Below, in pieces: positions 8,102 to 47,319 of a stretch of 64,000 nt of DNA. Made by a program: the position numbers and the translations under genes. The stretch lies in NCBI RefSeq assembly GCF_002001205.1, contig NZ_MUNZ01000180.1, positions 1-64,000 of the forward strand, read 5' to 3'. The notes under the pieces were generated by a model. That model saw only the letters and a list, made by a program, of their open reading frames with translations. It was not told the origin of the DNA and did no database searches. The stretch comes from Hydrogenophaga sp. A37 (lineage in GTDB: Bacteria > Pseudomonadota > Gammaproteobacteria > Burkholderiales > Burkholderiaceae_C). Each line of letters starts with the position of its first letter. Position 1 is the stretch's first letter.

Positions 8102-8356
8102 ATGCAATCGACCGAACTGATTCGCCAATTTCTCCATGAGCGTGTGGGAATCCAGCCAGACCAGGTGGTCAATGAGGCATTGCTTGCCGATCTCGGTGTT
8201 GACTCGCTGATGCTCGCCGAGTTGATGTTCGAAGCCGAAGACCGCCTGGGCATCTCCATCGAATCCAGTGTGACCATTCCGAAAACGGTTGGCGAAATGG
8301 TTCGGTTGATCGACAACCTGCTCGCGGCCAAAGCAGCCAAAGCCGCGCAATCATGA
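8102..8356 (+). CDS. Acyl carrier protein (pigment cluster ACP 1)
   Basis: 84-aa acyl carrier protein with the phosphopantetheine attachment motif LADLGVDSLMLAELMFEAE (serine in VDSLM). It is the first gene of the + arm of the aryl polyene-like cluster, and its stop overlaps the start of the adjacent ketosynthase by 4 bp (ATGA). It likely carries the growing polyene chain or the aryl starter. The exact start is uncertain: ATG 8102 (MQSTEL) and ATG 8093 (MYAMQS) are both possible and neither has a strong ribosome-binding site. Two different carrier proteins are a hallmark of aryl polyene clusters; the second is at 9629. Confidence 0.85.
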   Translation: MQSTELIRQFLHERVGIQPDQVVNEALLADLGVDSLMLAELMFEAEDRLGISIESSVTIPKTVGEMVRLIDNLLAAKAAKAAQS

Positions 8357-9612
8357 TCCGCCACCGTGTGGCCATCACGGGCCTGGGAATGGTCAGCCCG
8401 TACGGAGGAGGCGTGGACGCTTTCTTCGAGCACCTGCTTACCGGTCGCTCTGCGGTGCGTTACCTGCTGACCGAAGACAAGCCACGGCCCTTGTCCATGC
8501 CGTTCGTGAGCTGCAGTGAGTTTGACCCCGCTGCCGCGCTGGGCAAGCCGCTCGCGGCCATGATGGATCGCTTTGCCCATCTCGGCGTGTCGGCGGCCTT
8601 TGACGCCTGGCAAGACGCGGGTCTTGAACGATTGCCATCCAACCCCGAAGACCGCAATGACTGGGCTTGCATCTGGGGCACCGCGCTGGGCGGCATTCTG
8701 GCCTTTGAAAAGGGCTACCGAGAGATGTGGCAAAACGGGCGCGAACGCGTCTCGCCGCTGTCGGTGGTGATGGGCATGAACAACGCGGTCAATGCCCATC
8801 TGTCCATTCAGCTCGGGTTGGGTGGGATCAGCATGAGCCACACGGTGGCTTGCGCCTCGTCCACGGTGGCGATCGGTGAGGCCTTTCGCCGCGTGCGCTC
8901 AGGCGAGGCCACAGTGGCCATCACCGGGGGATCCGATGCCACCCAGGCTTATGCCGTGGGCAAGGCCTGGGAGGCCATGCGGTTGGTGGCGCCGGGCAAT
9001 GTCGATACAGCCCCCATGGCCTGTCGACCTTTTGCGGCGGATCGCGCTGGGCTGGTGTTGGGCGAAGGGGGTGCCGCCATGGTGCTCGAGGACTGGGACC
9101 ATGCGATGGCAAGAGGGGCCCGCATTCACGCAGAGATCGTGGGCTACGGCGCCAGCTGCGACCGCAGTCACCTGGTTCGTCCCGAGGCGGAGGGCCAAGC
9201 CCGTGCGTTGCGGGCGGCGCTGGCGGACGCCGGTCTGGTCACCAGCGACATCGGCTACGTCAATGCCCACGGCACCGCCACCGTGGAGGGGGACCCCATC
9301 GAAGTCAGCGCGCTCAAGACGGTGTTTGGCGAACATGCTTCTTCGCTGGCGGTGAGCGCCACCAAGTCCATGCACGGTCACCTGATGGGAGCGGCGGGTG
9401 CCATCGAGGCGCTGGCCACGGTGCTGGCGCTGCGCGAGCAGGCCATTCCCCCGACGGCCCATCTTCGGGGCCGGCTCGATCCGGTCTGCGAAGGGGTCGA
9501 TCATGTCTTTGAAGGGCGACGAGGTGTCCCGCTGGGTGCTGCCTTGTCCAACTCTTTTGCCTTTGGTGGCAGCAACGCCGTGTTGGCCTTCCGTGCTGCG
9601 CCTCACCCCTGA
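8353..9612 (+). CDS. Beta-ketoacyl-ACP synthase (pigment cluster KS 1)
   Basis: 419-aa FabB/FabF-type ketosynthase. The catalytic triad is visible: Cys167 in HTVACASSTVAIGEA, His306 in VNAHGTATVEGDP, and His343 in KSMHGHLMGAAGAIEA. The C-terminal NSFAFGGSNAVL closes the thiolase fold. It condenses malonyl-ACP with the carrier-bound chain; by context it works in aryl polyene synthesis rather than housekeeping fatty acid synthesis. It overlaps the upstream ACP gene by 4 bp, and the second ACP gene begins 16 bp downstream, so the three genes form a tight carrier/ketosynthase unit. A second full ketosynthase and a chain-length-factor-type protein lie at 17913-19903. Confidence 0.92.
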   Translation: MIRHRVAITGLGMVSPYGGGVDAFFEHLLTGRSAVRYLLTEDKPRPLSMPFVSCSEFDPAAALGKPLAAMMDRFAHLGVSAAFDAWQDAGLERLPSNPEDRNDWACIWGTALGGILAFEKGYREMWQNGRERVSPLSVVMGMNNAVNAHLSIQLGLGGISMSHTVACASSTVAIGEAFRRVRSGEATVAITGGSDATQAYAVGKAWEAMRLVAPGNVDTAPMACRPFAADRAGLVLGEGGAAMVLEDWDHAMARGARIHAEIVGYGASCDRSHLVRPEAEGQARALRAALADAGLVTSDIGYVNAHGTATVEGDPIEVSALKTVFGEHASSLAVSATKSMHGHLMGAAGAIEALATVLALREQAIPPTAHLRGRLDPVCEGVDHVFEGRRGVPLGAALSNSFAFGGSNAVLAFRAAPHP

Positions 9613-9628
9613 TTCCGAGAACCACGAC

Positions 9629-9910
9629 ATGTCCCAAGTACCTGATATTTCTTTCGACGACCTCATGGCTGAGGTGGCCGCGCTGATCGTGGAGGCCCTC
9701 AACCTGGAGGTGCAGCCCCAGGATGTGAAGCCCGACGATCCGCTCTACGGCGAGGGGCTGGGCCTGGACTCCATCGACATGCTGGAGATCTCATTGGTGA
9801 TCTCGAAACACTACGGTTTCCAGTTGCGTTCGGACAACGAGAACAACGACAAGATTTACGCGTCGTTGCGTGCGCTCTCAACCCACGTCGCCAGCCAACG
9901 CACCAAATGA
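9629..9910 (+). CDS. Acyl carrier protein (pigment cluster ACP 2)
   Basis: 93-aa carrier protein with the 4'-phosphopantetheine site EGLGLDSIDMLEISLVIS (serine in LDSID). The start is ATG 9629 (MSQVPDIS), 16 bp after the ketosynthase stop. Its sequence differs clearly from ACP 1 (for example SKHYGFQLRSDNENNDK in helix III), which suggests distinct roles, such as loading versus elongation. The pair of ACPs next to a ketosynthase and an AMP-ligase is characteristic of aryl polyene and xanthomonadin clusters. Confidence 0.88.
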   Translation: MSQVPDISFDDLMAEVAALIVEALNLEVQPQDVKPDDPLYGEGLGLDSIDMLEISLVISKHYGFQLRSDNENNDKIYASLRALSTHVASQRTK

Positions 9911-9989
9911 CCTTGGGCGTTTTGCGGGTCCCAGCAGCGGGGTGGCCAGGGGTGTTCGGCGCAGGGGCTCCTTGCTTGAAGGCGTTCCC

Positions 9990-11339
9990 ATGAGTTACCT
10001 ACCGCTGATCAGCGACCGCGGTCTGGACGACATCCTGGCCTGGCGCCCCACTGGCCCCGTGACGGTGGGCGAGTTTGTGGCCGATGCCCAGGCACTTGCG
10101 GCGGTGCTTCCTGCAGGCGACGGGGTGCTCAACCTGTGCGAGGACCGCTACCACTTCGCGGTGCTGTTTGCCGCCTGTTTGCTGTCCGGCAAGACCAGCC
10201 TGCAACCGGCTTCTCACTCGGCCGAAACCCTGCAACGGCTCGTGCTCGACCAGCCCGATTCGTTCGGCGTCGTGGATGGCGCGTTTGAATCGGCCGGGCT
10301 GGCCTGTATCGATTTCCCTGATCTGGCCACGCTGCCCCGTCCTCGTGTGGTCGAGATGCCCATGGTGGACGCTGACCGCGTGGCTGCGATCCTGTTCACC
10401 TCGGGCTCCACCGGGCTGCCGCAGCCGCACGCCAAAACCTGGGGTCGGCTGGTGCAAAACGGCCGGGCCGAGGCCATCGGTCTGGGTTTGACGGAGCGGC
10501 CGCCCGTGCTCGTGGGCACCGTGCCGGCGCAACACAGCTACGGGTTCGAGTCCACCTTCCTGATGGCACTCCACGGTGGCTGCAGTTTCTGGAGCGGCAA
10601 GCCGTTTTACCCACAAGACGTGGTGGACGCGCTGAACGCCGTGCCGCGCCCGCGCATGCTGGTGACCACGCCTTACCACCTCTCGGCCCTGCTGGCGTCC
10701 GATGTGACGTGGCCAGCACTGGACACCTGCCTGTCGGCCACCGCGCCGCTGGGCGCCGAGCTGGCCGCGCGCGCTGAAGCCCGGGGCGGGGCGCCGGTCC
10801 ATGAAATCTACGGTTCCACCGAGTCGGGTCAGCTGGCCTGCCGGCGCACCACCGATGGCCCGCTGTGGAAGCTGTTGCCCGGTGTGGTGCTGGAGCAGGA
10901 GAACGACACCACCTACGCCCGTGAGGGCCATGTGGAAGGCCGGGTGCCGTTGTCGGACATCATCGAATTGAAAGATGCCGGGAGCTTCCTTCTGCACGGT
11001 CGGCATGCCGATCTGATCAACATCGCCGGCAAACGCAGTTCGCTGGCTTATCTGAACCACCAGTTGTGCGCCATCGAGGGTGTGCTTGATGGTGCTTTTT
11101 TCCTGCCCGATGACACCGCAGAAGACGCTGGTGGCATTACCCGTTTGACCGCGTTCGTGGTCGCGCCCGGTCTGGCGGCGGATGCGCTGCAGCGCGCGCT
11201 GCGCCAACGCATCGACCGCGTGTTTCAGCCACGCCCGTTGGTGCTGGTCGATGCACTGCCTCGCAACAGCACGGGCAAGCTGCTGCGCACGACGCTGCAG
11301 GCGCTGTACCAGGAGCGCGTGGCGCATGGCCGTGTTTGA
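9990..11339 (+). CDS. AMP-forming acyl-activating enzyme (aryl/acyl-ACP ligase)
   Basis: 449-aa member of the ANL adenylate-forming superfamily. The ATP-binding loop AILFTSGSTGLPQPHAKTW, the EIYGSTESGQLACR motif and the C-terminal PRNSTGKLLRTTL with the catalytic lysine are all present. It is shorter than fatty acyl-CoA ligases, as are the cluster-encoded ligases of aryl polyene pathways. It probably activates an aromatic acid (hydroxycinnamate or hydroxybenzoate) and loads it on one of the upstream ACPs. The ATG at 9990 (MSYLPLIS) starts at the domain; the longer frame overlaps ACP 2. The following dehydratase gene overlaps it by 14 bp. Confidence 0.88.
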   Translation: MSYLPLISDRGLDDILAWRPTGPVTVGEFVADAQALAAVLPAGDGVLNLCEDRYHFAVLFAACLLSGKTSLQPASHSAETLQRLVLDQPDSFGVVDGAFESAGLACIDFPDLATLPRPRVVEMPMVDADRVAAILFTSGSTGLPQPHAKTWGRLVQNGRAEAIGLGLTERPPVLVGTVPAQHSYGFESTFLMALHGGCSFWSGKPFYPQDVVDALNAVPRPRMLVTTPYHLSALLASDVTWPALDTCLSATAPLGAELAARAEARGGAPVHEIYGSTESGQLACRRTTDGPLWKLLPGVVLEQENDTTYAREGHVEGRVPLSDIIELKDAGSFLLHGRHADLINIAGKRSSLAYLNHQLCAIEGVLDGAFFLPDDTAEDAGGITRLTAFVVAPGLAADALQRALRQRIDRVFQPRPLVLVDALPRNSTGKLLRTTLQALYQERVAHGRV

Positions 11340-11631
11340 GCGGGCCTGGCAGGTGCCACTGGACCACCCGGCCTTTGCCGGCCACTTTCCTGGGCACCCC
11401 ATCGTGCCTGGTGTGCTGTTGCTGGACCAGGCCGTGTTGCTGGCTCAGCAGCACCTGGGGCGTCAGGGGGGTGCCTGGCAGGTGACCCAAGCCAAGTTTC
11501 TCAGCCCCAGCGGCCCTGGGGACGAGTTGGTGTTCTTGCTTCAGGACGGCGTGCGTGGCGGGGTGTCGTTTGTGGTGCGCTGTGGCGATCGTGATGTCGC
11601 TTCGGGCAACCTGCAGCCCTCGATCCCATGA
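11326..11631 (+). CDS. FabA/FabZ-like hot-dog dehydratase (dehydratase 1)
   Basis: 101-aa hot-dog protein related to 3-hydroxyacyl-ACP dehydratases. It has the family signature HPAFAGHFPGHPIVPGVLLL, in which the GHFPGHP histidine is the usual catalytic residue. It overlaps the ligase gene by 14 bp and the acyltransferase gene by 4 bp, indicating tight translational coupling. It probably forms, alone or with the second hot-dog protein at 19897, the dehydratase that introduces the conjugated double bonds. It is shorter than FabZ (about 150 aa), matching the short dehydratases of aryl polyene clusters. Confidence 0.82.
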   Translation: MAVFERAWQVPLDHPAFAGHFPGHPIVPGVLLLDQAVLLAQQHLGRQGGAWQVTQAKFLSPSGPGDELVFLLQDGVRGGVSFVVRCGDRDVASGNLQPSIP

Positions 11632-12545
11632 AGGGCGCCTCCCACCCGACCGAAGCGCAACCCGAGTGGATGCGGCGCCAGGAGCGCAGCAACCTGGCCA
11701 TCCTCCGTCTGATGGTCTGGATTTCACTCTCGTTCGGCCGCCGTGCGGGTCGGATCGTGTTGCACGGCATTGCCACCTACTTCGTGCTGTTTGCCCCGGC
11801 CGCGCGTCGGGCGAGCCGTGCCTACCTGCGCAAGGTGCTGGGGCGCTGGGCGGGATGGCGCGACGGTTACCGCCACGTGTTCAGTTTTGCGAGCACCATC
11901 CACGACCGCATCTACCTCCTCAATGACCGCTTCGATGTGTTCGACGTGGAGGTGGTGGGCGACAAAGCCTTGCTGGAGCAGCTTCAGAAGCAGCCGGGTG
12001 CGCTGCTCATGGGTGCCCACCTTGGCAGCTTCGAGGTGCTGCGCGCCATGGGGCGTGGCAAGAAGGGGCTGCGGGTGGCCATGCTGATGTACGAGCAGAA
12101 CGCGCGCAAGCTCAATGCCACACTCTCCGCCATCAACCCCAAGGCGATGCAAGATATCATCGCTCTCGGGCGTCTGGAGTCGATGCTGGAGGTCCGCGAC
12201 AAGCTCGACGAAGGCTTTCTGGTGGGCATGCTGGCCGACCGCTCACTGGGCGATGACGCCACGCTGAATGTCGATTTTTTGGGTGAAACGGCGGCCTTTC
12301 CGCTCGGCCCCTGGCGCATGGCGGCGATGCTCAAGCGCCCGGTGTTCCTGATGGCGGGGCTGTACCTGGGCGGCAACCGTTACCAGCTGCACTTCGAGCC
12401 GCTGGCCGATTTTTCCCAGATCGAGCGCGGCGGGCGCGACGCGGCGATCAAGGGCGCTGTGCAGGCCTACGCAAACAGCCTGGCCCGCCTGTGCAAACTG
12501 GCGCCGTACAACTGGTTCAACTTCTTCGACTTCTGGAAACCATGA
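11628..12545 (+). CDS. LpxL/HtrB-like lysophospholipid acyltransferase
   Basis: 305-aa acyltransferase of the LpxL/HtrB (lipid A late acyltransferase) family. The H-x4-E active-site motif is visible in GAHLGSFEVLRAMGR, and MLADRSLGDDATLNVDFLG matches the family's second block. An N-terminal hydrophobic segment (RIVLHGIATYFVLFAP) suggests association with the inner face of the inner membrane. In this context it is expected to transfer the aryl polyene acyl chain onto a lipid or lipid-like acceptor, rather than to acylate lipid A. It shares 4-bp ATGA-type overlaps with both neighbours. Confidence 0.85.
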   Translation: MKGASHPTEAQPEWMRRQERSNLAILRLMVWISLSFGRRAGRIVLHGIATYFVLFAPAARRASRAYLRKVLGRWAGWRDGYRHVFSFASTIHDRIYLLNDRFDVFDVEVVGDKALLEQLQKQPGALLMGAHLGSFEVLRAMGRGKKGLRVAMLMYEQNARKLNATLSAINPKAMQDIIALGRLESMLEVRDKLDEGFLVGMLADRSLGDDATLNVDFLGETAAFPLGPWRMAAMLKRPVFLMAGLYLGGNRYQLHFEPLADFSQIERGGRDAAIKGAVQAYANSLARLCKLAPYNWFNFFDFWKP

Positions 12546-13213
12546 GAAACCCCCCTGCGTCGCTTCGCGCCCTCCCCCCTTCTGCGAAGGGGGACGCACC
12601 CTGTGGCCCGGCGAAGCCGGTTCCACGGGCGCCCTGGGGGGTGCTTCTGCGCTCCGTCGTGCTGGCTTTGGCGGGGTTGGGTGTCTTGACGGCCGCGCAC
12701 GCGGCGTACGACATCGATCAGCTGATGACCGATCTGGCGGGGCAAAAGGGCGGGCGGGCACGCTTTGTCGAAAAGCGCCACGTGGCCCTGCTCGACAAGC
12801 CGGTGCAGGCCAGCGGCGAGATGGTGTACAGCCCACCCGACAGGCTGGAGAAGCGCACCTTGCTGCCCAAGGCGGAAACCATGGTCCTGGACAAAGACAC
12901 GCTCAGCATGGAGCGCGGGCAGCGCAAGCTCACCATCAACCTGCAGAGCCGCCCGGAGGCGCTGGCTTTCGTCGACAGCATCCGCAGCACGCTCGCTGGC
13001 AACCGCAAGTCGCTGGAGCAGAACTACGCGCTCAAGCTGCAGGGTGAGAGCGCCCAGTGGGTGCTGACCCTGGTGCCGAGCGAGCCCGCCATCGCGGCGC
13101 TGCTCCAGCGCATCACCGTGACAGGGAGCAAGAGCCAGGTTCGCCACATCGAGTATCTGCAGGTGGACGGCGACCGTTCGGAGATCAGCATCGAACCGAT
13201 CGAGGCGCAATGA
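12542..13213 (+). CDS. LolA-like outer-membrane lipoprotein carrier protein
   Basis: LolA-fold protein (223 aa from ATG 12542) with signal peptide LLRSVVLALAGLGVLTAA ending at AHAAYD, followed by QLMTDLAGQKGGRARFVEKR, the usual first strand of the LolA fold. It would carry a hydrophobic molecule across the periplasm. The first 33 codons come from a GC-rich repeat element, so a GTG at 12641, giving a conventional signal peptide directly, is a serious alternative start; the ATG at 12542 is supported only by its ATGA overlap with the acyltransferase. It lies directly before an MMPL exporter, as in aryl polyene clusters. Confidence 0.85.
   Translation: MRNPPASLRALPPSAKGDAPCGPAKPVPRAPWGVLLRSVVLALAGLGVLTAAHAAYDIDQLMTDLAGQKGGRARFVEKRHVALLDKPVQASGEMVYSPPDRLEKRTLLPKAETMVLDKDTLSMERGQRKLTINLQSRPEALAFVDSIRSTLAGNRKSLEQNYALKLQGESAQWVLTLVPSEPAIAALLQRITVTGSKSQVRHIEYLQVDGDRSEISIEPIEAQ
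12550..12640. repeat. GC-rich dispersed repeat inside the LolA-like gene
   Basis: The segment runs from CCCCCTGCG to CCTGGGGG and contains a perfect 8-bp hairpin, CCCCCTTC-TGC-GAAGGGGG, and the box GGCCCGGCGAAGCCGGTTCC, which recurs at 56831-56850 and, degenerate and inverted, at 2328-2348. It occupies codons 3-33 of the annotated LolA-like gene and stays in frame. Confidence 0.6.
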
Positions 13214-13327
13214 GCCCCGCCCGGCCGCCCGAAGGGGCTCGCACCGCAGTCCGCCGGACGGAGGTCTCAATAGGCCCCGCCCGGCCGCCCGAAGGGGCTC
13301 GCACCGCAGTCCGCCGGACGGAGGGTC
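13208..13327. repeat. 60-bp perfect-period tandem duplication
   Basis: Two 60-bp units (13208-13267 and 13268-13327) are nearly identical: both contain CCCCGCCCGGCCGCCCGAAG, GGGCTCGCACCGCAGTCCGC and CGGACGGAG, differing mainly at the unit ends. They fill the gap between the LolA-like stop and the MMPL exporter start. Confidence 0.9.
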
Positions 13328-13335
13328 TCCAGTGA
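13210..13335 (+). CDS. Possible 41-aa coupled ORF in tandem repeat
   Basis: An ATG at 13210 overlaps the LolA-like stop (ATGA) and opens a 41-codon frame through both 60-bp repeat units. Its TGA (13333-13335) overlaps the GTG start of the exporter (GTGA). The peptide is a near-duplicate, with PARPPEGARTAVRRTE occurring twice, very Arg-rich. It has no recognisable domain and may simply be a ribosome relay or an accident of the repeat. I list it because the overlaps at both ends copy the coupling style of the rest of the operon. Confidence 0.25.
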   Translation: MSPARPPEGARTAVRRTEVSIGPARPPEGARTAVRRTEGLQ

Positions 13336-15674
13336 GGTCGTCTGCGGTCAAGGTGTTTCTGGTCTGGCTGGCGCTGATGCTGGCTGGGGTGGCCGTGGTG
13401 TGGAACAGCCGCTTCTCGGCGGACATGTCGTTCTTTCTGCCATCCAAGCCCACGGCGGAGCAACAGGCGCTGGTGGGGCAGCTGAAGGACGGCACGGTCT
13501 CGCGCCTGCTGATGCTGTCGATCGAGGGTGGCGATGCGCCCCAGCGCGCGGCGGTCTCGCGCGAGCTGCGCAAACGCCTGGCCAGCGACCCGGCCTTTGT
13601 GTCGGTGCAGAACGGTGAGGCGGGCGGGTTGGAGAGCGAGCGCGATGTGCTGCTGCGCCACCGGTACCAGCTCAGCCCGGCGGTCTCGCCCGAGCGCTTC
13701 ACGGAAGAGGGCCTGAGGTCAGCGGTGACCGATACCATCGATCTGCTGTCGTCGCCAGCGGGCGTGTTGCTCAAGCCTTATCTGGCGAACGATCCCACGG
13801 GTGAGGTGTTGGCCGTGCTGGGGCAGCTGAACCCGGCGACGCAGCCGCAGACCCGTGCGGGCGTGTGGGCTTCGCGCAATGGCGAACGCGCCATGCTGCT
13901 GTTGCAGACGCGCGCGCTCGGTTCCGACACCGACGGTCAGGCCGCAGCGATCAACACCGTGCGCCAGGTCTATGCCCAGGCGCTGCAGACCACCGGCCAT
14001 TCGGCGCTGACGCTCAACCTGTCCGGGCCGGGCCAGTTCGCGGTGCAGTCACGCGAAACCATCAAGGAAGAGGTCGCTCGGCTGTCGCTCATCAGCTCCG
14101 TGGCCATCTGGCTCGTGCTGTTCTGGGTCTACCGGTCGTTTCGCCTGCTCGCCCTGGGGCTGATCCCGGTGCTCAGCGGCACGCTCGCCGGCATCGTGAT
14201 GGTCAGCCTGGTGCACGGCACGGTGTTTGGCATCACCGTCGGCTTCGGGTCGGCGCTGATCGGCGAGGCGGTCGACTACGCCATCTACTATTTCGTGCAG
14301 GCCGGCCACCAGGGGGTCGATCAATGGCGCCGGGTGTTCTGGCCGACCATCCGGCTGGGCGTCATGACCACCGCCATTGGTTTCGGTGCCTTGTTGTTCT
14401 CGGGTTTTCCGGGCCTCTCGCAGCTGGGCCTGTACGCCTTGTCGGGCGTGGTCACTGCGGCCCTGGTGACCCGTTTCGTGCTGCCCGCGCTGACCGGTGC
14501 GGGCGTCAACGTGCCGCAGTCCGGGCCCTGGGTAAAGAAGGGTCTGTCGCTGTTGAACCAGGCCCACCACCTGCGCTGGGTCGCGTTGGTGTTGGCCGTG
14601 GTGGTGGGCGCCTACCTGTGGCAGGTGCGCGACGGTCTGTGGGACGGCAATCTCTCGGCGCTGTCCACCGTGAGCGAGGCCGAAGCCTCGGCCGATTCGC
14701 GCATGCGGACGGACCTGGCCGCGCCCGATGCGCGTTACCTGGTGACCGTGACGGCGCCCGATCAGGAGGGCGCTTTGCAGGCAGCGGAACGCGCGGGTGA
14801 GCGGCTGGACCAGCTGGTGGAGCAGGGCGTGATCGGGGGCTATGACAGCCCCGCCCGTTTCCTGCCCAGCGAACAGCTGCAGCGCCAGCGCCTGTCCAGC
14901 CTGCCCGAGCCGGCCGAATTGCAGGCCCGGCTGGAGCGGGCGCTGGTCGACTCGCCTTTATCGGCCAGCAAGCTCGGACCGTTCCTGAGCGACGTGGCGG
15001 CGGCCCGTGGACAAGGCGTGATGCGCCGAGCCGATCTGGAGGGCAGCGCCCTGGCGCTGGCGGTGGACTCGATGCTGACCCGCACCAAGGACGGTGGATG
15101 GAGCGCGATGATGCCGCTGCGCCCCACGGCGGATGCTGACGAGTCCAGCCTGCCGGCCGACCGGCTTCGCACCACGCTGGCCGGCAGCGGGGCGGTGTTT
15201 GTCGATCTCAAGACCGAATTTGAATCCCTCTACGGTGGCTACGTGAGCGAGGCGGTGCAGTTGTCGCTGGCGGGTGTGGCCGCGATCGCTCTGCTGCTGG
15301 GGTTCACGATGCGTTCGGCCGCGAGGCTGTCGCGGGTGTTGTTCACGCTGGCGCTGACCGTGGCCTGCGTGATTGCCCTGCTGCACCTCTCGGGCGCGCG
15401 CCTGCACCTGCTGCACCTGGTGGGCATGCTGCTGATCGTGGCCGTGGGCTCCAACTACGCACTGTTCTTTGACCGCGCCGCAGCGGGAGAACCGCTGGAC
15501 GAGGCCACGCTGATGTCCATGGCCGTGGCCGTGCTCACCACCGTGATCGGGTTTGGCACGCTCGCCAGTTCCAGCGTGCCGGTGCTGCAGGCCGTGGGCA
15601 TCACGGTCGGGCCGGGCGCGTTGCTGGCGCTGCTGTTGTCGGCCGTGCTGGTGTACCCCAAAGGTGGGAAGTGA
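13332..15674 (+). CDS. MMPL/RND-type exporter
   Basis: 780-aa inner-membrane exporter of the MMPL/RND superfamily (COG4258-like). There is an N-terminal helix (VKVFLVWLALMLAGVAVVW), a large periplasmic loop, and two bundles of transmembrane helices: one begins SLISSVAIWLVLFWVYRSF and includes GSALIGEAVDYAIYYF, the other AVQLSLAGVAAIALLLGF with VGSNYALFFDR. In aryl polyene clusters this protein with the LolA-like carrier is thought to move the lipid-linked pigment toward the outer membrane. The GTG start at 13332 is used because no ATG lies near and it overlaps the upstream 41-codon frame. The downstream gene overlaps by 4 bp. Confidence 0.9.
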   Translation: MRSSAVKVFLVWLALMLAGVAVVWNSRFSADMSFFLPSKPTAEQQALVGQLKDGTVSRLLMLSIEGGDAPQRAAVSRELRKRLASDPAFVSVQNGEAGGLESERDVLLRHRYQLSPAVSPERFTEEGLRSAVTDTIDLLSSPAGVLLKPYLANDPTGEVLAVLGQLNPATQPQTRAGVWASRNGERAMLLLQTRALGSDTDGQAAAINTVRQVYAQALQTTGHSALTLNLSGPGQFAVQSRETIKEEVARLSLISSVAIWLVLFWVYRSFRLLALGLIPVLSGTLAGIVMVSLVHGTVFGITVGFGSALIGEAVDYAIYYFVQAGHQGVDQWRRVFWPTIRLGVMTTAIGFGALLFSGFPGLSQLGLYALSGVVTAALVTRFVLPALTGAGVNVPQSGPWVKKGLSLLNQAHHLRWVALVLAVVVGAYLWQVRDGLWDGNLSALSTVSEAEASADSRMRTDLAAPDARYLVTVTAPDQEGALQAAERAGERLDQLVEQGVIGGYDSPARFLPSEQLQRQRLSSLPEPAELQARLERALVDSPLSASKLGPFLSDVAAARGQGVMRRADLEGSALALAVDSMLTRTKDGGWSAMMPLRPTADADESSLPADRLRTTLAGSGAVFVDLKTEFESLYGGYVSEAVQLSLAGVAAIALLLGFTMRSAARLSRVLFTLALTVACVIALLHLSGARLHLLHLVGMLLIVAVGSNYALFFDRAAAGEPLDEATLMSMAVAVLTTVIGFGTLASSSVPVLQAVGITVGPGALLALLLSAVLVYPKGGK

Positions 15675-17855: not shown

Positions 17856-17885
17856 ACGCGTTCGTTTGAACCCTTCCTCTACACT

Positions 17886-17904
17886 GCGGGTTTTGACGAC
17901 CCGC
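17886..17904 (+). other. Small hairpin before second ketosynthase
   Basis: GCGGGT-TTTGACG-ACCCGC forms a 6-bp stem with a 7-nt loop in the 57-bp gap between the methyltransferase stop and the GTG of the ketosynthase at 17913. It has no following U-run, so it is not an obvious terminator. It could be a processing or pausing site, or chance. Confidence 0.3.
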
Positions 17905-17912
17905 CGCCCCAC

Positions 17913-21065: not shown

Positions 21066-21108
21066 GCGCGCCAACGCTGCCATCAACCGGCGGCAAGGAG
21101 TTCAAGTC

Positions 21109-21694: not shown

Positions 21695-21713
21695 TGCCCG
21701 CTTCTGTTCGGGG

Positions 21714-23665: not shown

Positions 23666-23666
23666 C

Positions 23667-24449
23667 TCAAGCTCCCGTCGCGCTCAACCGGCGCCAGATC
23701 AACAACGGCAGCCGCCACACAAACCCGATGAACAGCCGGGTGTGCATCCAGGTCAGCAGGGTGTTGTCGCGCAGGTATTTGAAGTGCGACACACCGCCTT
23801 CTTCGGCGCTCAGGTAGCGCACCGGCGCGTCGATGTTGACCGGCCGCACGCCCGCCCAGCACAGGCGCACCACGGCCTCGGGGTCGAAGTCGAAGCGGCG
23901 CATGAAGCGGTTGCCGCGCATGACCTTGATCAGCGGCGCGATCGGGTAGACGCGAAAACCGTAGAGCGAGTCGCCCACACCCATCCACAGCGTCTCCAGG
24001 TTGGCCCAGCCGTTGGACACCTTGCGGCCGTTGACGCGAAGCGCGGGCGCTTCCGGGCCGAACACCGGCTTGCCCAGCACCATGGTGCCAGCGTCGCGCT
24101 GCGAGGCGGCCATGAAGGTGGGGATCAGGTCGGCCGGGTGCTGCCCGTCGGAGTCCATTGTGAGCGCGTGCGTGAAACCGGCCTGGGCCGCCAGGGAGAT
24201 GCCTTCGAGCACGGCGGCACCCTTGCCCTGGTTCTGCGGGAGCACGATGACCTTGAGGCCCGGGTCGCCCTGTGCCAGCGCCTGAAGGCTTTGGTCGGTG
24301 CCATCGGTGCTGCCATCGACCACGACCCAGACAGGAGCCCATTGCGCACGCGCCTGGCGCACGGTTTCCAGCACGCCGGGACCGGGGTTGTAACTAGGGA
24401 TCAGCACCAGGTGGGTGGTGGAGGGGGTGGGCGTGGTGCGCTCAGTCAT
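23667..24449 (-). CDS. Family 2 glycosyltransferase
   Basis: 260-aa GT-A-fold glycosyltransferase. It begins HLVLIPSYNPGPGVLETV, with WVVVDGSTDGTDQSL for nucleotide-sugar binding, QNQGKGAAVLEGISLA, and the metal-binding DxD variant ALTMDSDGQHPADL. A C-terminal hydrophobic stretch (LFIGFVWRLPLLIW) suggests a membrane anchor. Glycosyltransferases of this kind occur in xanthomonadin and some aryl polyene clusters. The start ATG 24449 (MTERTTPTP) overlaps the acyltransferase stop by 8 bp. It may build a polyprenyl- or glycolipid-linked acceptor for the pigment. Confidence 0.85.
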   Translation of the reverse strand: MTERTTPTPSTTHLVLIPSYNPGPGVLETVRQARAQWAPVWVVVDGSTDGTDQSLQALAQGDPGLKVIVLPQNQGKGAAVLEGISLAAQAGFTHALTMDSDGQHPADLIPTFMAASQRDAGTMVLGKPVFGPEAPALRVNGRKVSNGWANLETLWMGVGDSLYGFRVYPIAPLIKVMRGNRFMRRFDFDPEAVVRLCWAGVRPVNIDAPVRYLSAEEGGVSHFKYLRDNTLLTWMHTRLFIGFVWRLPLLIWRRLSATGA

Positions 24450-25221
24450 CTTGGGCAGGTGGGGCGGGCGGGACGATCTCGCGGCGGAAATACGCGTCCA
24501 GTTCCTGGGTGAAAGCGGTGAAGTCGGCGGGGGCGTCGAAGCGCCGGCCCAGGCGGGCACGGACATGGAGCGGCAGCACCGGCCGGCGGAACAGCGGCCA
24601 GGCCTTGCCCAGGTAGGGCGTGGAGAACTCCAGGATCACGGTCTGCACCGGGGCCTTGGCGCGGCTGGCGATCATGCCCAGCGTGAGCGTCAAGGGGTTG
24701 ATCGGGAACGCGGTGGTGCGGGTTCCCTCGGGAAAGATCAGCACCTGCCCGCCCGCTTGCAGCCCCTCGCGGCTCTGCCCGACGATCTGCATCACGCCGT
24801 CGTTGCGGATGTAGCGCGCCAGCCGGGCGGCCGAGCCGAACAGCAGGTTGTCCATCAGGCCGGCCTTCATGACGCAGATCACGTTGGGCAGGCGCGAGAT
24901 GATCAGCACCGCGTCGAGCAGGGAAGGGTGGTTGGCCGCGATGACCAGCGGGCCTTGATCGCGCAGGCCGTCGAGTTCGCTCAGGTCGAAGCGGCAGGCG
25001 CACAGCGTGCTCAGGATGCGCAGGTAAAAACGGAAGCCGTGCATGATGACGCGCCGGCCCACACGCTGGCCCAGCGGCGCCGGCAGCAGGGGGTGGAGCA
25101 GCATCGCGAAGGGCAGCCAGGCGAGGCAGAGCGCCGCCAGGCTGCCCAGGCCGATGTGCATGGCCACGCGCTCGTACAGGGCCCACAAGGGGCCGCTGCG
25201 GCGCAGGCTTTGCTCACTCAT
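24442..25221 (-). CDS. PlsC-type 1-acylglycerol-3-phosphate acyltransferase-like protein
   Basis: 259-aa acyltransferase with the H-x4-D motif in VIAANHPSLLDAVLII and the second block VLIFPEGTRTTAFPIN. An N-terminal hydrophobic region (LGSLAALCLAWLPFAMLLHP) anchors it to the inner membrane. Aryl polyene clusters commonly encode such a lyso-lipid acyltransferase, thought to build the lipid acceptor. The start MSEQSLRR at 25221 overlaps the upstream barrel gene by 8 bp. A role in general phospholipid synthesis is less likely given the context. Confidence 0.87.
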   Translation of the reverse strand: MSEQSLRRSGPLWALYERVAMHIGLGSLAALCLAWLPFAMLLHPLLPAPLGQRVGRRVIMHGFRFYLRILSTLCACRFDLSELDGLRDQGPLVIAANHPSLLDAVLIISRLPNVICVMKAGLMDNLLFGSAARLARYIRNDGVMQIVGQSREGLQAGGQVLIFPEGTRTTAFPINPLTLTLGMIASRAKAPVQTVILEFSTPYLGKAWPLFRRPVLPLHVRARLGRRFDAPADFTAFTQELDAYFRREIVPPAPPAQDD

Positions 25222-26080
25222 CAACCACGACGCGCTCTGCCGATTCACCCAGGATCCAGGAGACCGCCACACCGGCGGCGACGTAGTTCTTGGTGCGCAC
25301 CAGCGGGCTGTCGGCGAAGCGCGCCCCGCTCAGGTTGTCGTAGCGCAGGAAGGCGCCGACCCAGTGTTTCGGGTAGCGCTTGGACACGCCCACGACGTAC
25401 TGCATGCCCGCGAAGCCGCCGCCAGCGGCGTAGGCCGGGCGATTGGCGGTGGCATAGGCGGCATCGACGCCGTAGAAGTAGTGGTGCTGCTTGCGGTCGC
25501 CGAAGAGCGGGCCGAGTTGCATCCCCAGGTTCCAGTCGGGCAGGCCGGACAGGTCGCCGATGTCGAGGTTGAGCTTGGGGTGCACGACCCAGCCCAGGCT
25601 TCTGGAATTCTTCTCCAGCGTGAAGGCCGCGCGCATGGGCAGCAGCAGCTTGAGCTGGCGGGCGCGGTTCTCGGTGCGCCACAAGGTCAGGTTCAATTGA
25701 GGCCCGAGCTCGAAGTTGGCCTTCAGGTCGGGCATACCGGAGCGCACGCGGATGTCGTCGCTGGAGGCGGGCGGCGACAGCGCCACTGAGAAGGTCAGTT
25801 CCGCGAGGTCCGAGTCGAACAGCTCGGCGCGCACGCCGTCGCGGTCGGCCTTGAGGAACTCACCCCGGTAGACGAAGTAGGGCGAGGGCAAAAGAAAGTT
25901 GTGGCGCTGGTCGGACCCGCGGTAGGCGGGGAAGCTGACCGCGGCGACGCCGACACCAGCCTCCCACAGGGGCTTTTCTTCGGCCGCTAGGGCGGACTGG
26001 CCGACGGCGCACAACAGCAGGGCGCCAGCAGCCGTCCGTTTGAAGGAAGACATCGGCAGAGGGCTGTGGGTGGGGGTCAT
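25214..26080 (-). CDS. MipA/OmpV-family outer-membrane protein
   Basis: 288-aa predicted outer-membrane beta-barrel of the MipA/OmpV family. The signal peptide is FKRTAAGALLLCAVGQSALA, followed by WEAGVGVAAVSFPAYRGSDQ, the typical first strand and YxGSxx motif. Alternating aromatic/hydrophobic strands fill the rest, to VAAGVAVSWILGESAERVVV. The start is ATG 26080, which overlaps the upstream stop (ATGA), or ATG 26053 directly before the signal peptide. In the pigment operon it may form an outer-membrane scaffold or receptor; MipA itself links peptidoglycan enzymes, so a cell-envelope role is plausible but unproven. Confidence 0.85.
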   Translation of the reverse strand: MTPTHSPLPMSSFKRTAAGALLLCAVGQSALAAEEKPLWEAGVGVAAVSFPAYRGSDQRHNFLLPSPYFVYRGEFLKADRDGVRAELFDSDLAELTFSVALSPPASSDDIRVRSGMPDLKANFELGPQLNLTLWRTENRARQLKLLLPMRAAFTLEKNSRSLGWVVHPKLNLDIGDLSGLPDWNLGMQLGPLFGDRKQHHYFYGVDAAYATANRPAYAAGGGFAGMQYVVGVSKRYPKHWVGAFLRYDNLSGARFADSPLVRTKNYVAAGVAVSWILGESAERVVVDE

Positions 26081-27411
26081 GCGTTGTACAGAGCGTGGTC
26101 GTCCACCCGGCGGATGTTGAAGCGGCGTCGTTGCCAGGCCATGAACGCGCGTTTGGGTTGCAGGATGTTGGCGGTGTAGTACAGCGCTTTGAAGAACAGG
26201 ATCGAACGCCAGATCGGCGTCTTGCCGAACACGTCGCCCGCCAGCACCGACAGGATGGCTTCTTCGACACGGAAGATGTTTCGGGGGCCCATCAGGAAGT
26301 CCCGCATGATGGGGTTGGTCACGCGGTAGATGAACCACGAAAACGCCTTGGGGCCGTGGCGCATCACGCGGTCAAAGCGCTTGAGCGCGGCGCCAGCCTT
26401 CTTCGGTTCGCGAAGGCAGGTGTCAACGGTGTCCGCCCCCACCACCGCGCTGTGCATGGCCAGCCAGACGCCCGATGAGAACACCGGGTCGATGAAGGCG
26501 TAGGCGTCGCCCAGCATCAGGTAGTTGGTGCCGTGGTTGCTCTGCGAGACATAGGAGAAGTTGCCGGTGGCCTCGACCGGGCTCACCTGGGTGGCGTTCT
26601 TGAGGCGCTCCACCAGCTGTGGGCTGGTTGCGATGTTGTCCATCATGAACTGCTGCAGGCTGCGCTGCCCACGCGTTTTCATGTGGTACGGCCAGGTGAC
26701 CATGCCAATGCTGGTGGTGCCGTTGGTCAGCGGGATGAACCAGAACCAGCCGTGGGCGAACCAGAAGATGCTGATGTTGCCTTCGTCGCTGCCTGCCCTC
26801 CGCTGCGCGCCGTCGAAGTGGGCGTAGACCGCCGAGCTGTTGTGGCGCGGGTTGCGCTGCTTGATCTTGAAGCGGTTGGCGAGAAAGGTGTCGCGACCCG
26901 AGGCGTCGATCACGAAGCGCGCCCGCCACCGTTTCTCATGGCCTTCGTCGCCGCGCGCGGTGATGTCGGCGCCACCATCGGCCAGAAAATCCACCGCCGT
27001 GACCTTGACGCCTTCGTGTGTCTCGGCACCTTTGGCTGCCGCGTGGCGGAACAGGATGTCGTCGAAGTCGGCGCGGCGCACCTGGTAGGCGGCGGGCATG
27101 GATTTGTCCCAGGCGCCTGCGAAATGAAACGTCTGTGTCCAATCGTGATCGGGCGACACGAACTCGGCGCCGGGCTTGTGCATGCCGATGGCCTTGACCT
27201 GTTCGGCGATGCCCATCTTTTCAAACAGAGGCAGGTTCGCCGGCAGCAGCGATTCGCCGATGTGGAAGCGCGGGTGGTGGGCTTTTTCGAGCAGCACCAC
27301 GTGGTGCCCCTTCTCGGCCAGCAGGCTGGCCACGGTGGAGCCAGCGGGGCCGCCACCGATCACGAGCACGTCACAGCTTGGGCCGGGTTCGCCCTGGGCC
27401 TTTGGATTCAT
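26077..27411 (-). CDS. Flavin-dependent halogenase-like protein 1
   Basis: 444-aa flavoprotein of the flavin-dependent halogenase/geranylgeranyl-reductase-like superfamily. The FAD-binding motif is VLVIGGGPAGSTVASLLA and HIGESLLPANLPLF follows, with the conserved lysine region MHKPGAEFV. The halogenase marker WxWxIP is present as WFWFIP in FAHGWFWFIPLTNG. FVIDASGRDTFLA and YLMLGDAYAFIDPVFSSG are further FAD contacts. It likely halogenates the aryl ring of the pigment, as proposed for xanthomonadins, with a separate FAD reductase supplying FADH2. A perfect 18-bp palindrome lies in its 5' leader. The start is ATG 27411 (MNPKAQGE). Confidence 0.82.
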   Translation of the reverse strand: MNPKAQGEPGPSCDVLVIGGGPAGSTVASLLAEKGHHVVLLEKAHHPRFHIGESLLPANLPLFEKMGIAEQVKAIGMHKPGAEFVSPDHDWTQTFHFAGAWDKSMPAAYQVRRADFDDILFRHAAAKGAETHEGVKVTAVDFLADGGADITARGDEGHEKRWRARFVIDASGRDTFLANRFKIKQRNPRHNSSAVYAHFDGAQRRAGSDEGNISIFWFAHGWFWFIPLTNGTTSIGMVTWPYHMKTRGQRSLQQFMMDNIATSPQLVERLKNATQVSPVEATGNFSYVSQSNHGTNYLMLGDAYAFIDPVFSSGVWLAMHSAVVGADTVDTCLREPKKAGAALKRFDRVMRHGPKAFSWFIYRVTNPIMRDFLMGPRNIFRVEEAILSVLAGDVFGKTPIWRSILFFKALYYTANILQPKRAFMAWQRRRFNIRRVDDHALYNA

Positions 27412-27429
27412 GGGATGGGACTCTGAAAG

Positions 27430-27447
27430 GCCGACCGATCGGTCGGC
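27430..27447. promoter_or_regulatory. 18-bp perfect palindrome, candidate TetR-type operator
   Basis: GCCGACCGATCGGTCGGC reads identically on both strands. It lies 18 bp upstream of the halogenase 1 ATG and about 25 bp downstream of a -10-like TATCAT (27478-27473, - strand). Palindromes of ACCGA-type half-sites are common TetR-family operators, but no TetR gene is in the window. Confidence 0.6.
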
Positions 27448-27551
27448 GTTGATACGAGGCGAATGGCCCCAAATGATAGTCGCTTCGGTGTCGCTGAAGG
27501 CATTGGGCAGGCCCGGAAGCTGGGTCGTGGTCGACCCCACTCAGACGATGT

Positions 27552-29189
27552 TCAGTTGACCGCTTCGGGCAGCATGCGGGCCATGTCGGACGGCCCGCCG
27601 TCGAGCATGCTGGCCGGGAGCAACAACACCAGTTCGTCGGCCTTCAGCCCCGGGTGATCGCTCTGGGCCCGCTGAAGAATGTCGGTGGCGAGCCGTTGCA
27701 GCTGCGTGTGGGAGCCACGGATGCGGGCCACGAAGCCTTCGGTGTCCAGATCGTCGTTCAGGCTGCGGTTGAGTTCGGCAAACCAGGGAATCGCGGCCTG
27801 GTCCAGCATCACCGCCGGGTTGCGCTTCAGGCTCAGCGTGGACCACTGGCGCAGGAAGTTCTGCACCGCCACGTTGAGCTGCTGGCACTCGGCCAGTTCG
27901 GTGCGCAGGGACGCGAGAACCGACAGGTCGGTCAAGCGCTGGTGGAAGAAGAACTGGGCCAGCACGCCCCAGTAGTAGGTGTAGTCCCAGATCACCTTGA
28001 CCGGCAACACTTCGGGGTCGCCAAACAGCGGGTACTGGTCTTGGTACAGCGCCATGGTGCTGTCGTAGAACGAATGGAACAGCTGGTCGAAGATCTGCGC
28101 GCGCGCGCCCAGGCGCTCGCCCCGGCGGTCCATCGCGATCAGCTCAGTGATGTAGGTGTTGCTGATGGCAATGAAGTCGCTGCCTGGCGAGTAGAACGGG
28201 TCAAGGAACAGGCCAGCCTCCCCCGTGAGCGCCCAGCGGTCGGCGGAAAACACCTGCTTGCAGCCATAGGAAAAGCGCTTGAAGAAAGCGAAGTCCTGCA
28301 GCAACTCGCGTTTGGGGTCCAGTTCGTCGAACAGCAACGGCTGGTAGCGCTCCAGCCAGGTCATGGCCTTGTCGAAGCTGTCCATGGCGGCGAGCGGGTG
28401 GATCGCCGGGTCGGCCACGATGCCCACCGAATGCGAGCCCGAGGCCAGGGGAATCAGCCAGACCCAGTAGCCCGCGCCCACGAGGTGGTTGGTGGAGAGC
28501 CAGCGCGCCTGTGGATTGCAGCGCTCGCGCCACTCGATGTTGTCGCTCCATTGGTCGAGGTGGATGCGGTCCTTGATGCGGAACCACACCGCGTGGGCCG
28601 CGTGACCGTTGGGCTCGGCCAGGTTGAGCTTGCGCTTGAGCAGGCCCGCGCGGCCGCAGGCGTCCACCACCCAGCGTGCGTTGACGGTATGCGACACGCC
28701 TTCGTGTTCGTACACCACCTGGTGCCTTGCATCAGGACCTGTCTGATCGTCGGTCAACTCGATTTGCCGCACCATGGCGCCTTCGATGAGCTCGATGCCA
28801 CGGTGCTGTACCTCGGCCCCCAGGAAGTTCTCGAAGATGCCGCGATCGATCTGGAAGCTGGTCACCGACAGGAAGCGGCTCGCGCCGATCTCGGTCACCT
28901 GATCGATGTCGCGGCGGCCCTCGGAAAAGAAGAACCGGAAGCCGAACTTGCGCAATTGCTTGTTCTGGAGGTGGTCACCCAGCCCGAGCACTTTGTCGAA
29001 GTAGTGGGCGCCGATCTCCACCGACGACTCGCCCACCTTGTGCGCCGCTTCCGGGGCCGGGAGCGCGCGCCGCTCCAGCACCAGGATGCGAATGTCGGGG
29101 TCGCGCTGTTTCAGCTGCAGGGCCAGCGTGAGGCCGGCCAGCCCGCCACCGAGGATGACGACGTCGTGAAGAGGGGGTGTATGGACCAT
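27552..29189 (-). CDS. Flavin-dependent halogenase-like protein 2 (tryptophan-halogenase family)
   Basis: 545-aa flavoprotein of the tryptophan-halogenase family. It shows DVVILGGGLAGLTLALQL (FAD Rossmann motif), HKVGESSVEIGAHYFDKV with the GES signature, the candidate catalytic lysine in LRKFGFRFFFSEG, and the WxWxIP marker as WVWLIP in GAGYWVWLIPLASGSH. ALTGEAGLFLDPFYSPGSDF is the late FAD-contact segment. It is only distantly similar to halogenase 1, so the two are not a recent duplication. Its stop is 140 bp before the halogenase 1 start; the operator-like palindrome in that gap suggests separate promoters. It is divergent from the membrane protein gene at 29384. Confidence 0.82.
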   Translation of the reverse strand: MVHTPPLHDVVILGGGLAGLTLALQLKQRDPDIRILVLERRALPAPEAAHKVGESSVEIGAHYFDKVLGLGDHLQNKQLRKFGFRFFFSEGRRDIDQVTEIGASRFLSVTSFQIDRGIFENFLGAEVQHRGIELIEGAMVRQIELTDDQTGPDARHQVVYEHEGVSHTVNARWVVDACGRAGLLKRKLNLAEPNGHAAHAVWFRIKDRIHLDQWSDNIEWRERCNPQARWLSTNHLVGAGYWVWLIPLASGSHSVGIVADPAIHPLAAMDSFDKAMTWLERYQPLLFDELDPKRELLQDFAFFKRFSYGCKQVFSADRWALTGEAGLFLDPFYSPGSDFIAISNTYITELIAMDRRGERLGARAQIFDQLFHSFYDSTMALYQDQYPLFGDPEVLPVKVIWDYTYYWGVLAQFFFHQRLTDLSVLASLRTELAECQQLNVAVQNFLRQWSTLSLKRNPAVMLDQAAIPWFAELNRSLNDDLDTEGFVARIRGSHTQLQRLATDILQRAQSDHPGLKADELVLLLPASMLDGGPSDMARMLPEAVN

Positions 29190-29383
29190 GGGCGGAAGTA
29201 TCGCCTCAAACGGCGGCCGGGGGAGCGGGCGTCGGATGCTGCTGCCGACGGCAAGGGACTCGTTAAAATCGACAGCTTCCCCACCGGGTCTGCCGCGCAC
29301 CTTCTGAGTCGCCGGCACGGCATCCGTACCGCGCGCCCACCACCTCGGGGAGTGCTCCCCCTTTCCTCGATCAAGCGCAACCC

Positions 29384-30094
29384 ATGCCACCCCACCTGCC
29401 TGCCGTCACCGAAGTTCTGCCGCCTGACGGGATCGCCGAGCCGAGGTCCTCGGTGTGGCACTGGGTTCGTGGGGTCGGGCTGGCCGTGCTGGCCGTTGCC
29501 TGGGCGCTGACGGCCCATTTCACCAGCGCCCATCAGGAGTCCTCGGGTTGGGGGGCTCTGCTGGCGCTGACGCCCATGAGCACCGCCTTGGCGGTGGTGT
29601 TGTGGCGCATGCCCGCTCGCTGGCTCGGCACCTTGCTGGGTGCGGTGGTGCTGGCCGGGCTGGTCTGGTTCTGGCCGTTTCTGAAGGGGCAGGTGGCGCT
29701 GCTGTACTACCTGGAGCACCTGGGCGTGTACCTGCTGCTGTCGGTGTTCTTCGGGCGCACGCTGTCGGGCCCCGAAGAGTCGCTGGTGACGCGCATGGCC
29801 CGCAGCGTGCACGGTGGCGTGCTGTCGCCCGCGCAGGCCGTCTACACCCGGAAAGTCACCCTGGCTTGGTGCGTTTTCTTTGCCGGCATGGCGCTGGTAT
29901 CCACGCTGCTGTTCCTGCTGGCCCCCATCGTGGTCTGGTCCACGTTCGCCAACCTGCTCGGCGGTCCGCTGATCGCCCTGATGTTCGTGGGGGAATACCT
30001 CTGGCGCCGCCGCGTGCTGCCCGAAGAAAAGCCGGCCTCGATGGCCGATGCCGTGCGCGCCTGGAAGGCCCAGCGCTCGGACAAGGCTCGATGA
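29384..30094 (+). CDS. Small membrane protein (COG4648-like)
   Basis: 236-aa protein with about six predicted transmembrane helices: VRGVGLAVLAVAWALTAHF, GALLALTPMSTALAVVLW, LGTLLGAVVLAGLVWFWPFL, LGVYLLLSVFFGRTL, LAWCVFFAGMALVSTLLFLL and GGPLIALMFVGEYLW. It resembles the COG4648-type membrane proteins that accompany aryl polyene clusters (recognition from memory, not a search). Its function is unknown. It is divergent from halogenase 2 across 194 bp and closes the cluster on the dnaE side; its stop lies at the left end of a 165-bp repeat element. Confidence 0.72.
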   Translation: MPPHLPAVTEVLPPDGIAEPRSSVWHWVRGVGLAVLAVAWALTAHFTSAHQESSGWGALLALTPMSTALAVVLWRMPARWLGTLLGAVVLAGLVWFWPFLKGQVALLYYLEHLGVYLLLSVFFGRTLSGPEESLVTRMARSVHGGVLSPAQAVYTRKVTLAWCVFFAGMALVSTLLFLLAPIVVWSTFANLLGGPLIALMFVGEYLWRRRVLPEEKPASMADAVRAWKAQRSDKAR

Positions 30095-47300: not shown

Positions 47301-47319
47301 GATGTGCTCTGTGTAGACG

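Follow-up and report, generated by a model that had tools for sequence, protein, structure and literature searches.

The closest described relative of the pigment locus considered here is the arcuflavin system of Azoarcus sp. BH72. Its published genes (PMC3949708) include arcA (halogenase), arcC (MipA), arcD and arcR (acyltransferases), arcE (glycosyltransferase of family GT2), arcG (antiporter), arcH (reductase), arcI and arcS (dehydratases), arcJ (half-length chain-length factor, half-CLF), arcK (ketosynthase, KS), arcM (methyltransferase), arcN (deacetylase), arcP (exporter), arcQ (LolA), arcT (ligase) and arcV (acyl carrier protein, ACP). According to that paper, insertion mutants of arcK and arcT are colourless, and the structure proposed for arcuflavin is a heptaene which is methylated but not brominated and is linked to a dialkylresorcinol. 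The half-CLF type is described as essential in Lysobacter (PMC3691225), and for Hydrogenophaga sp. SL48 antiSMASH was reported to reveal a region of arylpolyene type and to list xanthomonadin I among the known clusters similar to the regions of this strain (PMC12993520). In this work we analyzed a cluster of this type in a stretch of 64,000 bp from Hydrogenophaga sp. A37 (contig NZ_MUNZ01000180.1, positions 1 to 64,000; hereafter the window), which belongs to an assembly of 5.55 Mb in 195 contigs, and in particular its second halogenase-like gene, encoding the flavoprotein HalB (27552–29189, minus strand).

Genes were called with our own codon-usage script (starts are approximate) and then assigned with Pfam, and NCBIfam and PDB matches were obtained for selected proteins. 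A full xanthomonadin/arcuflavin-type aryl polyene gene set was revealed at 7191–30094, and its sole unusual feature is HalB. From gene content, synteny, separate KS and CLF clades, reciprocal absence and motif retention we consider it probable that the cluster is of a known kind and that the origin of HalB is a second engine (KS2-CLF2-HalB), which elsewhere stands in for the elongating ketosynthase and chain-length factor of the cluster (KS-O and CLF). This second engine would consist of a KS/half-CLF pair that has evolved separately and of a halogenase-like enzyme belonging to it. It would substitute for KS-O/CLF in some other Burkholderiales, mostly from an unlinked locus, and in several Hydrogenophaga strains both engines are found side by side at the cluster. 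The lineage of the window would have lost KS2 and CLF2 and retained HalB, which would now most likely act on intermediates from KS-O/CLF.

The distribution of HalB was studied in named clusters and in genomes. It was present in one of 53 full-length named clusters (80 loci were fetched; they end at 10 kb, so gene absences in them are uninformative). HalB was found in at least 24 of 299 genomes of the family (E 1e-60) and in at least eight of 369 genomes of the class, the source genome included; both counts are lower bounds, with three to four candidates scored per genome. Among 60 Hydrogenophaga genomes it was revealed in 16 (E 1e-40). In 11 of the 24 family cases HalB was the last gene of a compact, stand-alone KS2-CLF2-HalB operon, without any other pigment gene in the 15–20 kb read save for a weak hydrolase match in L203; one of these trios (L217) starts within KS2. 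The trio was located in or beside the pigment cluster in five genomes (G571, G487, G558, G351, G587), and HalB lay within the cluster without KS2 and CLF2 in six, including the window. One of the remaining two cases had neither gene (L219) and the other was at a contig end. Seven class-level matches fell outside the family. L258 contained the trio, L259 had KS2-CLF2 about 2 kb from HalB, and L260 was too short to tell. In the four gammaproteobacterial loci (L261–L264) KS-CLF-HalB supplied the only KS-CLF pair seen, amid aryl-polyene-type genes, the ligase being seen in L264 alone. It should be mentioned that a distant HalB homologue (41%) on a Janthinobacterium lividum plasmid (NZ_CP139977.1; L306) adjoins a cation:proton antiporter gene, with genes for a phosphopantetheinyl transferase and a polyketide synthase (PKS) of type I in the vicinity.

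The genomes with trios were then compared by their other CLF genes. Among the 11 with stand-alone trios, a cluster-type CLF was found elsewhere in four (G493, G304, G566, G394), and no other CLF match was detected at E 1e-3 in seven, with up to eight candidates scored per genome. Together with G587, where the trio lies beside the cluster, eight of 16 trio genomes were thus without another CLF match. All seven stand-alone cases, although expected to be devoid of the pigment pathway, contained an ArcT-type ligase elsewhere (47–50% identity); the same search in six comparison genomes found it in five and not in G566. The genes around this ligase were arranged in the order ACP2, membrane protein, ligase, dehydratase, LpxL, LolA, MMPL, deacetylase, methyltransferase, dehydratase and FabG. 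The gap between the methyltransferase and the second dehydratase was 15–57 bp and gave no KS or CLF match at a threshold as loose as E 1, and G587, with its single CLF match, had the same empty slot of 87 bp. Of 15 canonical clusters (16 were tried), 13 had a gap of 1984–2193 bp at this place and the other two one of about 4.1 kb (maximum 4160 bp). Thus, all eight genomes examined in which no CLF other than that of the trio was detected contain a pigment cluster from which exactly KS-O and CLF are missing. The possibility that the stand-alone trio serves an unrelated pathway is weakened, since all seven genomes tested, and G587 as the eighth, hold such an engine-less cluster. HalA, the first halogenase-like protein, was encoded near the engine-less cluster in G484, G368, G546 and G587, and HalB therefore does not simply take the place of HalA. 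The stretch of G576 that was read showed no HalA, and the 20 kb fetched for G507 and G469 showed no gene of the minus arm; G385 lay outside this check.

Phylogenetic analysis placed the two engines apart. In a tree of 54 KS rows, KS-O (24 rows, support 100/97) and KS2 (21 rows, 94/88) formed separate clades, and the four gammaproteobacterial KSs adjoining HalB formed a further group. In a tree of 60 CLF rows, CLF2 (24 rows) and the four gammaproteobacterial CLFs beside HalB grouped together (98/94), while the cluster CLFs formed their own clade (30 rows, 97/93). An origin of KS2 and CLF2 by recent duplication of KS-O and CLF was rejected because of the separate clades in both trees, and the trio appears to be an old unit and not a recent copy. 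The full-length, ArcK-like KS-O of the window (17913–19103, plus strand; ketoacyl-synt) has the Cys-His-His motifs and belongs to the KS-O clade. It is followed by the half-length CLF (19100–19903, plus strand; Ketoacyl-synt_2, E 2.7e-25), similar to ArcJ and Lysobacter ORF16. Its Q157, kept in 26 of the 30 cluster CLFs, is probably the equivalent of Lysobacter Q166, as judged from the motif. Besides these, two family genomes (L269, L270) contained a further KS/CLF clade together with ligase, dehydratase, LpxL and FabG genes, apparently a third cluster type.

The suggested loss of KS2 and CLF2 can be followed within Hydrogenophaga. In 14 of the 16 HalB places, which were read, the trio was found in eight, CLF2 and HalB at a contig end in one, pieces of KS2 and CLF2 in one, and neither gene in four (the window, L242, L247 and L249). 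The place with pieces, L239 (10259–10896), is the nearest relative by HalB; it retains KS2 residues 296–396 and CLF2 residues 1–24 and 222–259, followed by an intact HalB, and may represent the decay of KS2 and CLF2 caught midway. In L201 and L240 the order is HalA, HalB, CLF2, KS2, membrane protein and presumed dnaE, i.e., the order of the window with KS2 and CLF2 present. H. pseudoflava has KS-O/CLF as well as KS2-CLF2 and HalB. Searches of the window and of the rest of its genome revealed neither gene, and relocation within the genome was rejected for this reason.

Both halogenase-like proteins belong to the Trp_halogenase family. The ArcA-like HalA (26077–27540, minus strand) matched PDB entry 5buk (E 9e-61), and HalB, the putative orphan of the trio, matched CmlS (3i3l, E 1e-15). 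HalB has what we take to be the halogenase motif set, GxGxxG, WxWxIP, an aligned Lys and FxDPxxSxG. WxWxIP and FxDPxxSxG were invariant in 45 of 45 HalB rows (two genes are entered twice, as L102/L241 and L220/L267), and the Lys was present in all 43 rows reaching that position; in HalA the corresponding WxWxIP, K122 and FxDPxxSxG were shared by all 30 homologues compared. A possible explanation, although not one that we favour, is that HalA and HalB are not halogenases and act on the polyene chain as flavin-dependent oxygenases or dehydrogenases. Arcuflavin is described as non-brominated despite the arcA gene in its cluster (PMC3949708), so halogenation of the Hydrogenophaga pigment would not be assured. 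HalB scored 77 bits against a cut-off of 900 for the CmlS equivalog NF033113, and one of its distant homologues is annotated as NAD(P)/FAD-dependent oxidoreductase, though another is annotated as tryptophan 7-halogenase. Against this explanation stand the invariant motifs in both proteins and the best solved-structure matches, which were to named halogenases including CmlS and PltA.

The strength of selection was estimated with our own Nei-Gojobori script for the window genes and four relatives. Omega was 0.17–0.23 for HalB and 0.07–0.14 for HalA in the same pairs. Since the values of HalB exceed those of HalA, HalB appears to be under purifying but mildly relaxed selection. The intact frame, the conserved motifs and the omega values led us to reject HalB as a pseudogene.

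Several observations weigh against the proposal that HalB is a remnant of a second, substituting engine, and the non-brominated arcuflavin is one of them. With the two nearest relatives omega was 0.23 for HalB and 0.07–0.09 for HalA, which fits partial decay. The eight engine-less clusters fall in only four genus codes (g203, g250, g220, g145) and would represent few independent replacement events. That KS-O is absent from them was concluded from the slot being empty and from the lack of a CLF, with no genome-wide KS-O search, and the CLF search behind them was limited to the eight candidates per genome mentioned above. The count of eight in eight leaves out G415 and G557, each with a single CLF2-like match. 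The ligase search can miss its target, since it found nothing in G566 despite the cluster-type CLF there. CLF2 alone was weakly supported (86/16), and the KS tree was built without L208, L213, L215, L217 and L243, in which the trio lies at a contig end or its gene calls are doubtful. Finally, in G415 (L268, G415:C20; L305, L298) KS2-CLF2 is kept at the same locus as in its congeners, with about 175 bp from CLF2 to the next gene, and HalB was not found in the 60 kb read. HalB would thus be dispensable for the KS2-CLF2 engine, and HalB and this engine seem separable in both directions.

It is unlikely, in our opinion, that the cluster is an ordinary aryl polyene cluster which HalB merely accompanies, decaying and without a part in the pathway, the product of KS2-CLF2-HalB being unrelated and its neighbourhood with pigment genes fortuitous in some genomes. 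Such an explanation would agree with the faster evolution of HalB in the window lineage, with KS2 and CLF2 being missing or fragmentary in five of the 14 Hydrogenophaga places read, and with the occurrence of distant homologues in other settings, e.g., near the type I PKS of Janthinobacterium. It is at odds with the invariant motifs of HalB, with the eight of eight genomes having only the CLF of the trio whose pigment clusters are devoid of precisely KS-O and CLF, and with the four gammaproteobacterial KS-CLF-HalB loci (ligase seen in one) amid aryl-polyene-type genes.

Still more doubtful is the view that the pigment is an arcuflavin-like dialkylresorcinol ester and not a xanthomonadin-like acid or lipid: the arc genes are the closest match, and genomes of Azoarcus, Dechloromonas, Variovorax and Sideroxydans are reported to contain both kinds of gene (PMC3949708), while the three KAS III-type places in the source genome, searched without a DarA/DarB query, lay beside fatty-acid genes, among unrelated neighbours, or below the cut-off. 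A hybrid cluster, suggested by the sequence-only reading along with an unusual subtype, was rejected, because the supposedly odd arcA (halogenase), arcC (MipA), arcG (antiporter) and arcN (deacetylase) are published arc genes and the convergent layout is conserved in relatives.

The gene list and the type assignment of that reading agree with our results. All gene classes that it had listed were recovered by gene calls and Pfam, and the two convergent arms that it described were located on the plus strand at 8093–21588 and on the minus strand at 21714–29189, followed by a membrane-protein gene on the plus strand at 29384–30094. Its assignment to the aryl polyene/xanthomonadin-like type is supported by the KS and half-CLF pair, AMP ligase, two dehydratases, reductase and envelope-export set, and by the close match to the arcuflavin genes (PMC3949708) and an unlinked XanB2-type chorismatase. 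The synteny comparison included 120 loci, of which 80 were named, 39 were stretches taken from 20 genomes and one was an unrelated stretch. Chance as the source of the gene set was ruled out because the set recurs in relatives in a largely similar order. Among the 53 full-length named loci, the genes for HalA (28/28), the antiporter (21/21) and MipA (18/18) were always in the opposite orientation, as were GT2 in 42 of 44 and PlsC in 41 of 43 loci having them; the UbiE-type methyltransferase was less constant (12/16).

The cluster probably starts with a PAP2-family phosphatase gene (7191–7922, minus strand; Pfam PAP2), since this gene adjoins ACP1 in several relatives (L069, L070, L083, L085, L087, L088, L091). 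The plus arm begins with ACP1 (8093–8356; PP-binding, E 8e-9) and a full-length accessory ketosynthase, KS-R (8353–9612; ketoacyl-synt; best NCBIfam match fabF, below its cut-off), which is distant from KS-O in the tree and may play an ApeR-like role. ACP2 (9593–9910; PP-binding), in the ArcV position and upstream of the ligase in relatives, precedes the ArcT-like AMP-binding ligase (9990–11339; E 1.6e-20), predicted from the role of ArcT (PMC3949708) to activate the aryl starter. Further along are an ArcS/ApeI-like hot-dog dehydratase (11326–11631; FabA, E 8e-8; ApeI-like below cut-off), an ArcR-like acyltransferase of LpxL type (11628–12545; Lip_A_acyltrans), an ArcQ-like periplasmic LolA carrier (12641–13213; LolA_3, E 6.5e-22) and an ArcP-like MMPL/RND exporter (13332–15674; MMPL, E 1.7e-15). 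The protein at the ArcO position (15671–16312), present in 28 of the 53 loci, had no Pfam or NCBIfam match; we take it to be alpha/beta-hydrolase-like. The ArcN-like polysaccharide deacetylase (16309–17109; Polysacc_deac_1; 50/53 loci) and ArcM-like methyltransferase (17106–17855; Methyltransf_23) lead to KS-O and CLF. Behind these are located an ArcI/ApeP-like hot-dog dehydratase (19897–20331; ApeP-like, E 3.6e-4, below the Pfam cut-off; 53/53 loci), an ArcH/FabG-type ketoreductase of the short-chain dehydrogenase family (20328–21065; adh_short, E 7e-55) and a small exported-looking protein (21109–21588) without Pfam or NCBIfam match, present in five of the 53 loci.

The minus arm consists of an ArcG-like Na/H antiporter (21714–22907; Na_H_Exchanger), the UbiE-type methyltransferase (22904–23665; Ubie_methyltran), the ArcE-like GT2 glycosyltransferase (23667–24449; Glycos_transf_2), an ArcD-like PlsC-type acyltransferase (24442–25221; Pfam Acyltransferase), the ArcC-like MipA outer-membrane barrel (25214–26080; MipA, E 9.5e-42), HalA and HalB. 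The membrane-protein gene to their right (no Pfam match) is a displaced cluster gene, now at the right edge; it was counted with the cluster because its homologues sit between ACP2 and the AMP ligase, in the ArcU position, in many relatives. The next gene is presumably dnaE. Outside the cluster, the window contains a stretch of lower GC content (43024–49155, 57–58%), in which a start resembling that of type IV pilins and a protein of 1262 aa, the size of PilY1, were noticed by eye.

No chorismatase gene was found within the cluster by the window gene calls and Pfam. A XanB2-like one was revealed at an unlinked position (G000:C33:78220–79059; L082 10077–11075), with E 7e-69 for TIGR04444 but 233 bits, under the cut-off of 325. 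Its neighbours look like dtd and ybeY/phoH. The protein consists of an N-terminal FkbO_Hyg5-like_N domain and a C-terminal L-PSP domain, and the latter fits published descriptions of XanB2 and ArcB, whose C-terminal domain is YjgF-like (PMC3949708). In the proposed route, for which chemistry, substrate, halogenation and interchangeability in vivo are what we infer, the chorismatase would provide hydroxybenzoate, to be loaded by the AMP ligase onto an ACP. KS-O and the half-length CLF would extend the chain with malonyl units, and FabG and the two hot-dog dehydratases would carry out reduction and dehydration in every round to give the polyene. The methyltransferases and HalA may modify it, and GT2, the acyltransferases, MMPL, LolA and MipA would attach it and carry it to the outer membrane.

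The yellow colour and protective role of this pigment are suggested by its relatives. Hydrogenophaga is described as yellow-pigmented (PMC5632844). In the source genome, H. taeniospiralis and H. pseudoflava a cluster CLF was present, while no match to crtI exceeded the cut-off of NCBIfam. Their colour would therefore more likely be due to an aryl polyene than to a CrtI-dependent carotenoid; H. flava had both. Among the 60 Hydrogenophaga genomes a CLF match was found in 33 (only CLF2 in G592) and crtI over the cut-off in 22. Cluster CLF and crtI occurred together in seven, fewer than the approximately 12 expected by chance, although many of the genomes are incomplete metagenome-assembled ones and no firm claim is made. 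The yellow colour of the genus may have two unrelated sources.

If KS2-CLF2-HalB truly replaces KS-O/CLF, nature would already have exchanged the engine of a type II polyketide pathway, and the determinants of polyene chain length, as well as the range of ACPs and dehydratases that an engine can work with, could be studied directly. More generally, we regard as about evenly balanced the idea that Burkholderiales aryl polyene pathways are built round a replaceable engine, in which two KS/half-CLF pairs, separate since ancient times and one of them combined with a flavin halogenase, have displaced each other, often from an unlinked locus acting in trans with the remaining cluster genes. The halogenase could then persist after its engine is lost and modify what the other engine makes, as in the window. 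Pigment length and halogenation would then evolve through module swapping. Such a swap was not found described in the arcuflavin, xanthomonadin and aryl polyene literature as far as it was covered, in part and excluding figures and supplementary tables. It is also a warning for genome mining, as the eight clusters without KS-O/CLF would look broken though the second engine sits elsewhere or alongside.

Comparison with known systems revealed the following. The Hydrogenophaga cluster shares most gene classes and a closely similar order with the arcuflavin genes (arcA-X) of Azoarcus sp. BH72 (PMC3949708). The arc genes form two unlinked loci, split between the KS and methyltransferase genes, whereas the Hydrogenophaga genes form one convergent locus; arcB (XanB2) lies inside the arc cluster, while the Hydrogenophaga chorismatase is unlinked. 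The UbiE-type methyltransferase takes the place of arcF, and KS-R/ACP1 and the second halogenase-like gene set the Hydrogenophaga cluster apart. The xanthomonadin-like cluster of Lysobacter enzymogenes OH11 is similar in its KS and half-CLF with the conserved Gln, dehydratases, reductase and transport genes, but, as described, has no halogenase (PMC3691225). To judge from the legend of Figure 5 in the same paper, Variovorax has a KS/half-CLF locus that includes a halogenase but no GT2-type gene, and this locus may be the KS2-CLF2-HalB trio. Escherichia coli apeA-R shares the ACPs, the ApeO/ApeC KS-CLF, ApeR, ApeI/ApeP, reductase and transport genes (PMC8253772). The Hydrogenophaga dehydratases scored below the Pfam cut-offs for ApeI (21.3 vs 28.5 bits) and ApeP (20.6 vs 27 bits), outside the E. 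coli ape type, and the halogenases, antiporter and MipA, in contrast to E. coli, are of the arc type. HalB itself shares its sequence family and motifs with flavin-dependent halogenases of the CmlS/PltA type, to which it is only distantly related, and, unlike CmlS and PltA, it is coupled to a KS/half-CLF pair.

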